DNA of 53,235 bases from Caldilineaceae bacterium SB0661_bin_34 (GTDB lineage: Bacteria; Chloroflexota; Anaerolineae; Caldilineales; Caldilineaceae): positions 1 through 53,235 of the forward strand of contig VXMJ01000084.1 of the NCBI GenBank assembly GCA_009841145.1, read 5' to 3'. Under the pieces are notes generated by a model, which saw nothing but the letters and a program-made list of their open reading frames with translations, ran no database searches and was not told the DNA's origin. Shown here piece by piece: positions 13,543 to 19,726 of the stretch (the stretch's first letter is position 1; each line of letters begins with the position of its first letter). Position numbers and translations under genes: made by a program.

Positions 13543-15249
13543 ATGGAAGCCCTGCGCGGCTTGGCCACTTCTCCACTCTTGCCTCCGCTGCTGCTGCTTG
13601 CGGGCCCGGTGGCACTGTCCTTTGCTCATCCCACGCGCAGTCGGCCGGACCGACTGCTGGCACTGGCTCTGATCCTGCTCGGCATCTCGCTCGCAGCCCT
13701 GATCAGTCAGGTGTTCCAGCGCGGGCTGCCGCTGTTTGCCCTCACTTGGCAGCCGTCCCTCCAGGACAGCTTTCAGTTTGTATGGCTGCATGTGGGCTGG
13801 AACTGGAACATATCGCTCTTGGCGGGAATTTTGGGCGCGGCCGGCCTGCTCTGCTCCGGACAGCGGCTGTCCGATCCGGAAAAGATGTCCCCGGAGGACA
13901 GGTTCTTCTTCACGCGGTTCCTGGCTCTTAATCTGGCGACGTTGGCCTGTGTGTGGCTGCTGGTCAACAGTGGCAACGTGCTGACCACGGTCTTTACCTG
14001 GGTCCTCCTGGATGTGATGTTGGTCTTCCGCCACACGCAGGTGATGAATCAGCACGCGGTGGTACAGGAGGAATGGTCCGTGGTGTACCACCGTGCTTTG
14101 GGCATGGGCATGCTGGGCACGCTGGTATTGCTGATTGGACTGTTTCCGGCAGGGGTCAACGGCCCCAATCAAATGCTGATTGGCTCGTCTTTGCCGATCG
14201 AGACCCTCTACGCCCTGTTTATCGCCGGCGCCGTACGCGGGGGAGCCTACCCCCTGCACCTTTGGCTGTTGCCCAGCAGCCACCTGAACCTCAGCGTATC
14301 CGAACGGATTTTCAGCCAGGTTCTGCCGGCCCTGTCGGGGCTCTGGCTGTTGGGCCTCACGCTTGAGTTGGCCCAGCGACAGCCCGAAATCCGGGCCCTT
14401 GTATTGCCGGCAATCACACTCATGTGCCTGATCAGCGCCGTTGTCTGCCTGCACCGGGGAAGCCGGTCCCTGCGCCGCAAGTCCGTTATCGTGACATCGG
14501 TGTCACTGACCGGATTGGCCGCCATGCTGGGATTCAGTCAGGGGCCCATGGCAACCCTTTCCTCGGTCGCCGCCTGCTGCCTGTCGGGGGCGCTGTGGCT
14601 TGTGGCGCAACGACTTCCCCCAACGCGGGTCGGCCTGGCATTGCACCTGCTGGGCATCCTGGGCCTCCTAGGGATGCCCCTGACACCGGGGTTCATCGCA
14701 CTGGGTCGTTGGCTTGAACCCGGCACCCTGCCCCCGGTAAGTGTCTTGAGCGCCACCTTCCTGCTGGCTGTCCTCGTGTTCAGTGCCTCCCTCTGGCGTC
14801 CATGGCTGGACGCCATCCGCAGGATGCAGGTCGGAATCCCTCTGCACCGAGATCCCCAACTGGGTGCAGCATGCCTGCTGGCCGTGTCGAACCTGCTCCT
14901 TGGGCTCGTTCCAGGCTGGATTTGGCTGCATGCCGGCGGCGCGGAATTGCCGTCCCTGTGGGAAAGCCTCGGGCAATTGCGTTCTCCCATGGTTCTGACC
15001 TACACGGCGGTCGCCACAGGCGGGGGTCTTTCGGTAGGCTGGATGCTGACCCGGGTGCGCGAGCCGGCCTCCCGGCTGCTGCACAAGATCACCCTTAACC
15101 TGTCTCTGGAGTGGGTATCGGGAGGCATCCAGTTCGGTGCCGCCCGGATCAGTGTGGTGTGGTCCAACACGCTGAATGTGATCGAAGGGTCCGGCCTTGT
15201 GGGCTGGTCCGTGGCTTTGCTGGTCCTGCTCCGCGCCATTCTGCGCTGA
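13543..15249 (+). CDS. NuoL/NuoM/HyfB-like antiporter-type membrane protein, divergent
   Basis: A 568-residue polytopic membrane protein with about 14 hydrophobic segments, resembling the proton-translocating subunits of complex I, group-4 hydrogenases and Mrp antiporters. The best landmark is AGAVRGGAYPLHLWLLPSSH, equivalent to the PLHxWLPDAH motif before the discontinuous helix. The Lys normally following that motif is absent (ERIFSQVLPALSG). The whole protein has three lysines. It starts the tight trio continuing at 15258 and 15857. Size order (568, 200, 471) recalls HyfB-HyfE-HyfF, but no hydrogenase or quinone-reductase catalytic subunit is nearby. Function unknown; proton pumping is not supported by the residues seen. 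Confidence 0.68.
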   Translation: MEALRGLATSPLLPPLLLLAGPVALSFAHPTRSRPDRLLALALILLGISLAALISQVFQRGLPLFALTWQPSLQDSFQFVWLHVGWNWNISLLAGILGAAGLLCSGQRLSDPEKMSPEDRFFFTRFLALNLATLACVWLLVNSGNVLTTVFTWVLLDVMLVFRHTQVMNQHAVVQEEWSVVYHRALGMGMLGTLVLLIGLFPAGVNGPNQMLIGSSLPIETLYALFIAGAVRGGAYPLHLWLLPSSHLNLSVSERIFSQVLPALSGLWLLGLTLELAQRQPEIRALVLPAITLMCLISAVVCLHRGSRSLRRKSVIVTSVSLTGLAAMLGFSQGPMATLSSVAACCLSGALWLVAQRLPPTRVGLALHLLGILGLLGMPLTPGFIALGRWLEPGTLPPVSVLSATFLLAVLVFSASLWRPWLDAIRRMQVGIPLHRDPQLGAACLLAVSNLLLGLVPGWIWLHAGGAELPSLWESLGQLRSPMVLTYTAVATGGGLSVGWMLTRVREPASRLLHKITLNLSLEWVSGGIQFGAARISVVWSNTLNVIEGSGLVGWSVALLVLLRAILR

Positions 15250-15257
15250 AGGCAATC

Positions 15258-15860
15258 GTGAACCAATTCGACTGGACGCTGCTGGCCGGAACCTTGCTCC
15301 TGCTGTTCGCCAGCTGGGATCTCCGCGCCACGGGTCCGCTATTGACCGTGGCCATCCTGCAGGTCGTGCGCATGCTGCTCCAGATCGGGGGGGATCCAAT
15401 GGAAGTGGTCGTTGGCGTTGGCCTGGTACCGCTGACGGCTGCGGTTGCCGTAACTCTGGGCAGCCTGCTGAGCCAGCCCGGCGGATGGAGCCGGGAAAGG
15501 CCCGCGCTTCTGATGCGCTTGCTGGGTGCGATGGCCATGGTTCTTGCCGCGCGCTGGGTGCCTGTCGACGATTTCGCGGACTTCCTGCCCCAGGCCCTGC
15601 AGCAACCTTGGTTGTTGCGGTCGACCATCATGCTCACCCTGAGCGGATTCCTCTTCACGGGTCTGTCCGACAGCCCGGCGGACTTCGGCCTCGGAGGGGT
15701 GCTCGTTCTGCTGACCTTAAACCTGGTGGTCTATGTGACCTACAGCCAAACCGTCCCATTGATTTTTCTCGTCAACGGGGCCGAGCTCCTGGCGATCCTT
15801 GTGTTTGCGCTCCAAGCCACCCGCGCCCGTCCCACGGCCGTGCCGGCATCGCTTCCATGA
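15258..15860 (+). CDS. Membrane protein, possibly HyfE/NuoK-like
   Basis: A 200-residue hydrophobic protein with roughly six transmembrane segments and no lysine at all. It sits between two antiporter-like subunits, eight bases after the first and overlapping the second (ATGA), so it is surely co-translated with them. Position and length recall HyfE, the NuoK-like subunit of hydrogenase-4 type complexes. The NuoK Glu signature is not clear to me; NGAELLAILVFAL near the C-terminus carries one membrane Glu that could correspond. GTG start at 15258 chosen by spacing. The subunit role is inferred from context more than from sequence. Confidence 0.55.
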   Translation: MNQFDWTLLAGTLLLLFASWDLRATGPLLTVAILQVVRMLLQIGGDPMEVVVGVGLVPLTAAVAVTLGSLLSQPGGWSRERPALLMRLLGAMAMVLAARWVPVDDFADFLPQALQQPWLLRSTIMLTLSGFLFTGLSDSPADFGLGGVLVLLTLNLVVYVTYSQTVPLIFLVNGAELLAILVFALQATRARPTAVPASLP

Positions 15861-17272
15861 TCAGTCCGGCCGAGTTCCTGCAGGGACAGGATCCAACTCC
15901 CATTTTGGTGTTGCTGGCACTGCTGGCCGGCAGCGGCCTTTGTCGAATGCTGCGCCGGAATGCGGTTGTCACCCAGGCCAGTGGCCTTGTCCTGGCCTGC
16001 ATCATTGGGTTGCTGCTGACCGAACTGCAACAGCGCAGAAGCCATCTGGGCGTAGGGCAGTTACCAGTCTGGGATTTTCCCCGTCTGGGTGTCGAATTGT
16101 CCCTCTCCAATGAGTCCCTGCCCGGCCTGCAGCTGGCGATCCTGGTGTTGGCCGGGGCCTGTCTGGTAATGCTGTTGACTGGCAGTGCGGCCGACTCCCT
16201 CCCGGGTCTGTTTCTGGCGTTCGCCGGGTTCGCGTTCGTGTTGACAACCTCGGCAACTCCCTTGGCCATGCCGTTGCTGCACCCGGTCCTGTTGCTTCCG
16301 ATTGCGGCCTGGACACCGTTGATGTCTTCCAGCACCCTGCCTCGGCTGCGCCGTCTGTCGCTTGTCCCGATGATCGCGCTGATATGCTTCATCCTTGCCA
16401 ACTGGGTGTTGGTGGCACTGATCCCCATTGACCCCCAAAACACGGACCTGGTCCAACGCGCCCAGTTTCTTTTGTCGGCGGGTCTTTTCGTCCTGTGCCT
16501 GCCTTTTCCGCTGCACCAGCTGCTGCGCGATCCCAACGAAGGCACCAACCCAATCCCAGGTGCGGCCGTTGATCTGATGTTGCAGTTTTGCATCCTGACC
16601 GTGCTGCACGGCACGCTGCTCAGGCATCCCATCCTGCAGAGCTACGAACCCCTATTCGCGTGGCTGGGCTGGGCGGGTATCCTGACTGTGGTCTGGGGCG
16701 GCCTGTCCGCCTTGGGCACTCAGGATCCTCGGCGCATTTGGTTCTATGCCTCTATGTTGAACTGGGGCATGATCCTCCTGGTTGTGACGCTGCCCGTGGG
16801 ACGCGTCTGGGGCACAATCCTGGGATTGTTCCTTGTCCGCATCGTCTGCACCATGTGCTGCTTGGCCGGCCTGACCCAACTGGACATCAGCCGCATCCGC
16901 GGAAACTTTCAGTGGGCTGGTTTGGGCCACAGCCTGCCTTGGAACATGGCCCTGTATCTGTTCGGCACGCTGGGCCTGGTCGGCTTCCCCCTGACCAGTG
17001 GCTTCGGCCACTTCTGGGTCACATGGCAGTTCATCGCCACAATCGACTGGCGGGTTGCACTCGTGCTGGCACTGGGCACGGCCTTGGCCGCCGTGGGCCT
17101 AATCCGGGTCTTGCGCATACTCCTGCGTCCCGAGGCGGAAACCACCCATGCCCAGGAACCGATGGCACTGCGCCTGCCCGCCGCCGGCATGCTGGGCTTG
17201 TTGGTTTGGATTTCGTTTGTACCCCAGATCCTGCATCCATTCGTGCAGGCCCTGCAGCAACAGTTTCCCTGA
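15857..17272 (+). CDS. NuoN/NuoM/HyfF-like antiporter-type membrane protein, lysine-free
   Basis: A 471-residue polytopic protein of the proton-conducting transporter type. Landmarks are CLPFPLHQLLRDPNEG (degenerate PLHxWLPD motif), DPRRIWFYASMLNWGMIL (equivalent to the KRxxAYSSxxHxG motif) and GLVGFPLTSGFGHFW (equivalent to the GIPPLxGFxxK motif, ending without Lys). The sequence contains no lysine, so every canonical channel Lys is lost or replaced. The ATG overlaps the previous stop (ATGA), and mvaA begins 12 bp later. It could be a structural paralogue in a non-pumping complex, or use other charged residues such as His and Arg. Confidence 0.62.
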   Translation: MISPAEFLQGQDPTPILVLLALLAGSGLCRMLRRNAVVTQASGLVLACIIGLLLTELQQRRSHLGVGQLPVWDFPRLGVELSLSNESLPGLQLAILVLAGACLVMLLTGSAADSLPGLFLAFAGFAFVLTTSATPLAMPLLHPVLLLPIAAWTPLMSSSTLPRLRRLSLVPMIALICFILANWVLVALIPIDPQNTDLVQRAQFLLSAGLFVLCLPFPLHQLLRDPNEGTNPIPGAAVDLMLQFCILTVLHGTLLRHPILQSYEPLFAWLGWAGILTVVWGGLSALGTQDPRRIWFYASMLNWGMILLVVTLPVGRVWGTILGLFLVRIVCTMCCLAGLTQLDISRIRGNFQWAGLGHSLPWNMALYLFGTLGLVGFPLTSGFGHFWVTWQFIATIDWRVALVLALGTALAAVGLIRVLRILLRPEAETTHAQEPMALRLPAAGMLGLLVWISFVPQILHPFVQALQQQFP

Positions 17273-17284
17273 ACGCGCCCGGCT

Positions 17285-18631
17285 GTGACCATCCCTGCCC
17301 CTGAAACCCCAGCGCCCTTGGCCGGTCTACACCGGTTGGAACCGGACGCGCGACTGGACCTGCTCCAGCAACAACGCCGGTTGGACCAACGGGATCGCGC
17401 CGTTCTGGACGCCGGCCTGTCCCTTCCCCAAGCCGACGCCATGTCGGAAAACGTAGTGGGCCGCTATGCATTGCCCTACGGCATTGCCACCAACTTCCTG
17501 GTCGACGGCGAGGAGCTGGCCGTGCCGATGGCGGTGGAAGAACCGTCCGTGGTGGCGGCCGCCAGCAAGGCAGCCAAGCTGGCCCGCACCTGCGGCGGCT
17601 TCCGCACGGAAGCCACACCCAACCTGATGGGCGGCCACATTCAGTTGGTGAACGTGCCGGACATCGATGAGGCACAACGGACCCTGGCAGCCGCGGAACG
17701 CGAACTCCTGGCGCATATCCCGACCCGCGGATCGTTGTTGGCGCGTGGCGGAGGCCCCCGGAGTTTGACCACACGCCACATTCCGCACTCGGAAGCGGGC
17801 CCCATTCTGTTGGTGGAACTGACCATGGACGTAGCCGATGCCATGGGCGCGAACATCGTCAACACGACCCTGGAGGCGCTGGCACCCCTGGTGGCGGAAC
17901 TGACCGGCGGCGAAGTCGTCCTGAGCATTCTGAGCAACCTGTGTGTTCAGCGCCTGGCAACTGCTGAAGTCCTTTATACCTGGAACGCGCTGGCGGACAG
18001 CCGGACGGAGGGTCGGAATCTCCAAAGGCGCATTGTCCAGGCAGACGCGCTGGCACAGGCGGATCCCCACCGCGCCGCAACCCACAACAAGGGCATCCTC
18101 AACGGTGTGGAGGCGGTGGCCATGGCGACGGGCAACGATTGCCGCGCGGTGGCGGCCGCGGCCCATGCCTGGGCCGCAGGCGAAGGTCGCTATCGGGGTC
18201 TCACCCGCTGGATGGTTGTGCCGGATGCCGACGCGCTACCCCGAGACAGTCTCGTCCGCACTCGGGGTGTGGATCCGGCAGGTCCCCTGCTGCACGGCCG
18301 CCTCACCTTGCCGCTGGCCCTGGGCGTGGCCGGACACAGCACTAGGGCCCATCCCCTAGTACCCATTTCCCTGAAGCTGTTGGGCAATCCCGACTCGCGC
18401 CGGTTGGCCCGCATCGCCGCGGCGGTCGGACTGGCGCAGAACCTTGCGGCCTTGCTGGCGCTGGTCGACACCGGCATCCAAGCCGGGCACATGCGACTGC
18501 ACGCGCGGCAGGTGGCGTTGGCAGCCGGCGTACCGGCCGGGCAGGTGGCCCGGGTTGCGGCCGAGATGGTGGCATCGCGCCGGATTTCCACGGAGGCGGC
18601 ATTAAGCTTCCATTCCTCGCTTGCGACATGA
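17285..18631 (+). CDS. mvaA: Hydroxymethylglutaryl-CoA reductase (class II type)
   Basis: Interconverts HMG-CoA and mevalonate. The 448-residue protein has ENVVGRYALPYGIATNF, the catalytic Glu in AVEEPSVVAAAS (~85), the DAMGANIVNT cofactor segment, Lys in HNKGILNG (~267), Asp in TGND (~285) and a C-terminal His in MRLHARQ. Length and the lack of a membrane domain fit class II enzymes. Nicotinamide preference is not visible. GTG start 12 bp after the membrane trio; HMG-CoA synthase follows 12 bp later, which points to isoprenoid synthesis rather than mevalonate breakdown (inference). Confidence 0.9.
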   Translation: MTIPAPETPAPLAGLHRLEPDARLDLLQQQRRLDQRDRAVLDAGLSLPQADAMSENVVGRYALPYGIATNFLVDGEELAVPMAVEEPSVVAAASKAAKLARTCGGFRTEATPNLMGGHIQLVNVPDIDEAQRTLAAAERELLAHIPTRGSLLARGGGPRSLTTRHIPHSEAGPILLVELTMDVADAMGANIVNTTLEALAPLVAELTGGEVVLSILSNLCVQRLATAEVLYTWNALADSRTEGRNLQRRIVQADALAQADPHRAATHNKGILNGVEAVAMATGNDCRAVAAAAHAWAAGEGRYRGLTRWMVVPDADALPRDSLVRTRGVDPAGPLLHGRLTLPLALGVAGHSTRAHPLVPISLKLLGNPDSRRLARIAAAVGLAQNLAALLALVDTGIQAGHMRLHARQVALAAGVPAGQVARVAAEMVASRRISTEAALSFHSSLAT

Positions 18632-18643
18632 GCCCGTGAAATC

Positions 18644-19726
18644 ATGGAAGTTCTCCAACACCCGCAGCACGACACGAACCGGAATGCCATCGGGCGTCCC
18701 GTTGGCATTATGGGCCACGGCGCCTACATTCCGCGGTATCGTTTGCCCGCCCGCGAAATCGCCCGGGTTTGGTCCGATCCGGACACGGTGCCGGTCGGAC
18801 AGGAAAAGTCGGTGCCCGGGCAGGACGAAGACACCGCCACCATGTGCATGGAAGCCTCCGCCAACGCCCTTAGTCGGGCCGGCGTGCCGCCCTCCGCGAT
18901 CGAAGCCGTGTGGATCGGCAGCGAGAGCCATCCGTATGCCGTCAAGCCCACGGGGACCATCGTGGCCGAAGCCATTGGCGCCACTCCCTTGACGCTGGCG
19001 GCGGACTTGGAATTCGCCTGCAAGGCCGGCACCGAAGCCCTGCAGGCCGGCATGGGTTTTGTCGGCAGCGGACGCGGCACGTATGCATTGGTGGCGGGCA
19101 TGGACACGGCCCAGAGCCGCCCTGGCGACGCCCTTGAGTACACCGCCGCCGCCGGTGGCGCGGTCCTGATCCTGGGCCCGGCAGAGGAGGCACCGGTCAC
19201 CATCAATCACGCGCTGTCCTGGGTCACCGACACCCCTGATTTCTGGCGGCGCCCAAACCAGCCCTATCCCATGCATGCCGGCCGGTTCACCGGCGAACCA
19301 GGCTATTTCCAGCATGTCCTGGCCGCCGGCCGCAAACTCATGGAGGATTCGGGTACCCAACCCTCCGACTACCACCACGTGGTGGTCCACCAACCCAACC
19401 TGAAGTTTGCGACGCGGGTGCTGACCGACATGGGTTTCCAACCCGACCAGTGGCGACGGGGCCTGCTCGTGGGCAAAATCGGCAATACGTATGCCGGTTC
19501 CACCCTGCTTGGCCTCAGTGCCATCCTGGACCGCGCCGACGCGGGCGACCGCGTCCTGGCCGTGAGCTACGGAAGCGGCGGGGGATCCGATGCCATTGAC
19601 ATGACCGTCACCCGCGATCCGGCTGCCTGGCGGAGCAAGGCCCCGGAGACGGCGGACTACTTGGCGCGAAGGGTGGTGATTGACTACGCCACGTATGCCC
19701 GCATGCGCGACAAGATCCAGACCTGA
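18644..19726 (+). CDS. Hydroxymethylglutaryl-CoA synthase, archaeal type
   Basis: Condenses acetyl-CoA with acetoacetyl-CoA to HMG-CoA, the step before mvaA. The 360-residue thiolase-fold protein begins VGIMGHGAYIPRYRLP, has the nucleophile in EFACKAGTEAL (Cys126), and the late His in VVHQPNLKFATR, then KIGNTYAGS and SYGSGGGSDA. Short length and these motifs match the archaeal HMGS group rather than the Firmicutes MvaS group. In archaea the gene usually neighbours acetoacetyl-CoA thiolase and an OB-fold partner; neither is in this window. ATG at 18644 leaves a ~20-residue N-tail. Confidence 0.9.
   Translation: MEVLQHPQHDTNRNAIGRPVGIMGHGAYIPRYRLPAREIARVWSDPDTVPVGQEKSVPGQDEDTATMCMEASANALSRAGVPPSAIEAVWIGSESHPYAVKPTGTIVAEAIGATPLTLAADLEFACKAGTEALQAGMGFVGSGRGTYALVAGMDTAQSRPGDALEYTAAAGGAVLILGPAEEAPVTINHALSWVTDTPDFWRRPNQPYPMHAGRFTGEPGYFQHVLAAGRKLMEDSGTQPSDYHHVVVHQPNLKFATRVLTDMGFQPDQWRRGLLVGKIGNTYAGSTLLGLSAILDRADAGDRVLAVSYGSGGGSDAIDMTVTRDPAAWRSKAPETADYLARRVVIDYATYARMRDKIQT

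Follow-up and report, generated by a model that had tools for sequence, protein, structure and literature searches.

A lysine-poor, putatively Hyf/Hyc-like membrane module beside the mevalonate genes of Caldilineaceae

The window analyzed here is the 53,235-nucleotide contig VXMJ01000084.1 of Caldilineaceae bacterium SB0661_bin_34 (Chloroflexota, Anaerolineae, Caldilineales; assembly GCA_009841145.1). It encodes three consecutive membrane proteins on its forward strand, referred to here as A, B and C, followed directly by the mevalonate genes mvaA and mvaS. On balance, we think it probable that this trio is an orphaned Hyf/Hyc-like membrane arm, kept in an mvaA–mvaS operon as a membrane complex that either provides a non-canonical ion path or acts as a scaffold. 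The three proteins would descend from the membrane arm of a Hyf/Hyc-like complex (the group-4 [NiFe]-hydrogenase/complex I family), with A as the NuoL/HyfB-like, B as the HyfE-like small and C as the NuoN/HyfF-like subunit. Relatives in other Chloroflexota classes still encode the trio together with a HycE-like large subunit. Loss of that redox subunit in the lineage of the window would have left an A–B–C membrane complex, presumably still assembled, which may persist in linkage to the proton-motive force or to a cation, either through an ion path of conserved Arg, Asp and His residues or in a scaffolding role.

Subunit identity and lysine content

Gene A (positions 13543–15249, + strand) encodes a degenerate NuoL/HyfB-class antiporter-like membrane protein of 568 residues with 3 lysines. 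Gene B (15258–15860, +) has a GTG start and encodes a lysine-free, multi-helix membrane protein of 200 residues; its reading frame overlaps by 4 bp that of gene C (15857–17272, +), whose product is a NuoN/HyfF-class antiporter-like membrane protein of 471 residues, also lysine-free. The original prediction, made from the letters of the window alone, had described this trio with the correct sizes, coordinates and lysine counts, and had rightly called its PLHxWLPDAH motifs degenerate: they read PLHLWLLPSSH in A and PLHQLLRDPNE in C.

A and C are members of the PF00361 antiporter-like superfamily, A by fold and profile alignment and C by sequence. Pfam and NCBIfam searches with A and B gave no convincing match, and PDB sequence profiles matched neither protein. 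The AlphaFold model of A (pLDDT 83, pTM 0.86) superimposes on Escherichia coli NuoL with a VIA Z of 34.7 and a root-mean-square deviation of 3.3 over 493 aligned residues; Foldseek recovers the NuoL fold at E 2.5e-11, and hhalign aligns the A and NuoL profiles over 333 columns (95.6%, E 1e-8). C exceeds the Pfam cut-off for PF00361 (E 4e-7), matches the PDB profile of mycobacterial NuoN (E 9e-16) and aligns end to end with the NuoN/M/Hyf profile (hhalign, E 8e-27).

B is probably a HyfE-like small subunit, judging from a profile built with 56 phylum-wide relatives. This profile aligns with HyfE over 173 columns, nearly its full length, at E 6.3e-4, compared with 0.26–0.97 for reversed and shuffled controls and for NuoH, NuoJ and NuoK profiles. 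B has no profile match to NuoH, NuoJ, NuoK or a 274-residue protein of Chloroflexus-like genomes, and its predicted model (pLDDT 84, pTM 0.80) returns only common helical-bundle matches in Foldseek and VIA, among them complex I NuoH at Z ~6.6. Because of these fold and profile matches, the HyfB–HyfE–HyfF or NuoL–x–NuoN arrangement originally proposed is well founded for A and C, and more tentative for B; the PF00361 and HyfE searches suggested with it placed C above the cut-off, left A without a convincing Pfam match and gave B the HyfE match described above. The B protein of the window's genus does not have the C-terminal extension found in its relatives.

Proteins of this genome are in general markedly rich in arginine and poor in lysine, and the soluble open reading frames of the window contain 1.9% Lys and 8.7% Arg. 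The complex I and Mrp-like sets of this genome include PF00361-type subunits with 4–16 lysines each (pooled 1.63%), from which 20.2 lysines are expected in the trio against the 3 observed (Poisson P 2.8e-6). The shortfall is less pronounced when the window's other membrane reading frames serve as reference (3 versus 14, P 4.5e-4). Lysine depletion of the trio is not peculiar to this genome. A contains 0.32% Lys in Caldilineales loci and 0.26–0.54% elsewhere and C contains 0.12–0.42% across the family, compared with 1.7–2.1% in reference Nuo, Hyf and Mrp subunits.

Channel positions in A and C

No Caldilineales relative of A or C keeps a canonical channel residue at the mapped NuoL and NuoN positions. 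In A of the window, NuoL E144 corresponds to Val154, and one helical turn past it lies Asp157 (14011–14013, +), which is invariant in 41 aligned relatives. Arg232 (14236–14238, +) occupies the position of K229, the lysine of transmembrane helix 7 (TM7) in NuoL; Arg is found there in 57/57 Caldilineales and 30/33 other Anaerolineae loci, counts into which some genomes enter twice. The K342 (TM11) position is Gly, and that of K399 is Gln, Leu or His. In C, Arg165 (16349–16351, +), invariant in the family alignment, stands at NuoN K158. E133 is replaced by Ala, Val or Leu, the TM7 lysine K217 by Leu, the TM8 lysine K247 by Gln and H305 by Asp or Asn. The position of K395 is mostly His and sometimes Arg; in the window's genus it is Phe, with the His displaced by one. 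C proteins of other classes keep a positive charge at K217 (Arg in 6/7, Lys in 1/7). In the window's genome, subunits of the ordinary Nuo and Mrp-like sets still have K229 and K342 or K217.

The channel lysines noted as missing in the window are thus gone from the whole family, with the correction that A carries an Arg in exchange for its TM7 lysine; homologues with the same gene context and normal channel lysines were therefore not found. This family-wide replacement argues for a degenerate HyfB–HyfE–HyfF-type membrane arm. Because nearly all of the residues required for canonical lysine/glutamate proton pumping are replaced, A–B–C would be incapable of that mechanism, and we infer that it is not a canonical pump. 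HycC of formate hydrogenlyase (FHL) is a precedent for a degenerate antiporter-like subunit: its TM7 lysine position is taken by Leu208, and hydrogen production survives several mutations in its channel (PMC9474812). In Bacillus, NuoL carrying K229A or E144Q still largely complements an mrpA deletion (PMC4938563). Given these precedents, loss of such residues is by itself no proof that ion transport has been lost.

It is accordingly possible, if unlikely, that the trio is a still-active proton or cation/H+ antiporter in which Arg, His and Asp replace Lys and Glu. The near-invariant Arg at K229, the Asp one turn past E144 and the Arg and His (or Arg) at K158 and K395 of C are what such a protein might be expected to conserve; the complementing NuoL mutants and the purifying selection described below point the same way. 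However, Arg rarely deprotonates, the TM11 lysine of A has become Gly, the TM7 and TM8 lysines of C have become Leu and Gln, and no Mrp-type partner subunits are recognised beside the trio.

Redox partner and mevalonate linkage

In Chloroflexus-like genomes, the gene immediately 5' of A encodes a PF00346 protein of 361–367 residues whose nearest PDB match is FHL subunit 5/HycE (E 4e-32). This HycE-like subunit has a CxxC near its N-terminus and a DPCxxC at its C-terminus; family f81 has the second CxxC pair only. No small-subunit gene was found beside the HycE-like gene in these loci, and wherever the contigs permit judgement the PF01058 small subunits of these genomes are distant from the trio. 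No HyfC/NuoH membrane anchor is recognised near the trio. After C, the Chloroflexus-like loci encode a membrane protein of 272–274 residues (L188, 12213–13034; also L187, L189, L191 and L203) that belongs to no known family and has no sequence match to NuoH or HyfC, followed by an ABC transporter.

A search of the window's genome and seven other Caldilineales genomes for the large subunit returned only complex I NuoD/CD matches. The respiratory complex I genes NuoA/B/CD/H/I/J/K are not co-encoded with the trio, Nuo genes being on other contigs, and the window's genome has no DabA (PF10070). The trio is thus without a hydrogenase, NADH or DabA-like partner nearby, as first described, the 49-kDa/NuoD genes of the genome being those of ordinary complex I. 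The accompanying idea of a distant catalytic partner is supported indirectly by the HycE-like gene of Chloroflexus-like genomes and not by the Caldilineales searches. The window's genome has two complex I sets, and the NuoL/M/N/H genes of one (contig C11) are apparently split from NuoB-CD-I (contig C30). The second 49-kDa match, on contig C30, was considered as a partner of the trio and rejected because it sits in this NuoB-CD-I block.

The trio might instead cooperate with a redox subunit from another part of the genome, either NuoB-CD-I borrowed from complex I or a diverged large subunit, but we regard this as improbable. The pairing in Chloroflexus-type loci and the presence of NuoB-CD-I on a separate contig are compatible with such an arrangement, but that block appears to belong with the contig C11 set, which is without these subunits, and a separate short 49-kDa gene is found neither in the window's genome nor in the seven others. 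To our knowledge, all known relatives of this membrane arm carry a HycE-like large subunit, so that loss in Anaerolineae is simpler than gain elsewhere. We infer that the redox subunit was lost in the lineage of the window rather than gained in the other class.

The mvaA gene (17285–18631, +; HMG-CoA reductase, PF00368, E 4e-92) starts 12 bp after C, as originally stated, and is followed by mvaS (18644–19726, +; archaeal-type HMG-CoA synthase, NF003274, E 9e-144), the conserved gene after mvaA. A survey of gene neighbourhoods also identifies mvaA as a conserved neighbour of the trio. With duplicates removed, it lies directly downstream of C in 36/36 assessable Caldilineales loci (including L041, where the gene caller over-extended the mvaA frame), in 14/35 other Anaerolineae loci from several families and in 0/8 loci of other classes. 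This distribution needs two changes on the C tree, which was built by a quick method and has some long branches. The host genome has a mevalonate kinase, IspH was not found in it, and the host depends on the mevalonate pathway. For Chloroflexi, an alternative version of the mevalonate pathway has been described (PMC3857490). The spacing and conserved order suggest that the trio would be co-transcribed with mvaA–mvaS as one operon, a link that most likely serves co-regulation with the synthesis of isoprenoids and membrane lipids and not a catalytic role.

That the trio acts directly in the mevalonate/isoprenoid pathway, for example as an anchor for HMG-CoA reductase or a transporter of precursors or isoprenoid carriers, seems to us quite improbable. 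The dependence of the host on mevalonate would suit such a role, and so would a linkage that is invariant in Caldilineales and extends to a number of further families within the class. The trio is, however, unlinked to mva genes in 21 other Anaerolineae loci and in 8/8 loci of other classes, so its basic function is likely to be independent of the link, and the operon may serve co-regulation alone. We hold as doubtful the bolder idea that a redox-free, nearly lysine-free, three-subunit descendant of the complex I/hydrogenase membrane arm has become a membrane machine of its own, for non-canonical ion transport or lipid- or isoprenoid-coupled transport, and was recruited as such into the Anaerolineae mevalonate operon.

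Homologues of C occur in 42/46 genomes of the order and in 243/396 genomes sampled from the class, which are mostly drafts annotated with a crude gene caller. A, B and C keep their adjacency and order across Chloroflexota, and the named records recovered by a contig scan with A patterns all belong to this phylum (Caldilineaceae and other Anaerolineae). The trio is under purifying selection, with ratios of nonsynonymous to synonymous substitution rates (dN/dS) of 0.11–0.28 for A, B and C, similar to those of neighbouring genes. On the C tree, the window's genus forms a very long branch within Caldilineales (2.08 changes per column). That the trio is a decaying remnant without function, as this branch and the lost channel residues might hint, is scarcely credible given these dN/dS values, the intact, single-copy frames and the presence in nearly all genomes of the order. 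Literature searches found no description of an A–B–C module, and the trio is not obviously included in the accessible part of the complex I gene table of the Chloroflexus genome paper.

Several points weigh against an orphaned Hyf/Hyc-like arm. The assignment of B to HyfE depends on a weak profile match and on gene position. The large subunit may have been gained in the other class instead of lost in Anaerolineae, and a partner of an unrelated family may be encoded elsewhere in the genome. Because a charge might still reside on Arg232 of A, Arg165 of C and the conserved His close to NuoN K395, the conclusion that the trio does not pump stays conditional. Chloroflexota hold a series from HycE plus trio (Chloroflexus-like genomes) to the trio alone (Anaerolineae). 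In this phylum-wide family almost every supposed proton-pumping residue is replaced, yet purifying selection is strong, and the trio thereby offers a naturally occurring experiment on which positions in the complex I antiporter-like fold matter for any function. It also ties a bioenergetic membrane module to early isoprenoid-synthesis genes in mevalonate-dependent organisms.

Pfam identifies GrdB-like, PhzF, Mfd, FtsH, PhyH and mva genes as neighbours of the trio; there are no Mrp genes among these, MrpB/C/E/F/G profiles not having been searched individually. In several Caldilineales an in-frame TGA interrupts a GrdB-like (PF07355) gene that lies close to the trio on its upstream side (L046, 10449–11552, − strand; also L047, L048, L049, L053 and L057). 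The conserved LTPA-UGA-GLCNRSVGL context suggests that this is likely a selenocysteine codon. Upstream genes of some genera (c9, c12 and c16) were considered as MrpE/F/G and rejected, c9 and c12 being the two parts of the UGA-interrupted GrdB-like protein, a likely selenoprotein. An aldehyde ferredoxin oxidoreductase gene lies right after the trio in a single distant genome of Anaerolineae (L108, 10949–13105).

Comparison with known systems

One of the closest known systems is the Hyf/FHL membrane arm (HyfB-HyfE-HyfF; HycC) with its large subunit HyfG/HycE. The trio resembles it in the classes of A and C, probably in that of B, and in relative order, a HycE-like gene adjoins the trio in Chloroflexus-like genomes, and HycC is likewise without the TM7 lysine (PMC9474812). 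Unlike Hyf/FHL, the window has no large subunit and no recognisable NuoH/HyfC, small or ferredoxin-like subunit, and the trio has also lost almost all other channel residues.

With complex I, A shares the fold of NuoL and C the sequence class of NuoN, but the trio has no adjoining NuoA/H/J/K or redox arm, its canonical Lys and Glu residues are replaced, and the genome encodes canonical Nuo sets separately. Fold searches with A also recover chains of MrpA and MrpD, whereas no MrpB/C/E/F/G is recognised near the trio and a separate Mrp-like set lies on contig C93. In the DabA–DabB inorganic carbon pump, a PF00361-type subunit operates outside complex I. DabA is absent from the window's genome, and the trait that the trio shares with this pump is the PF00361-type subunit itself.

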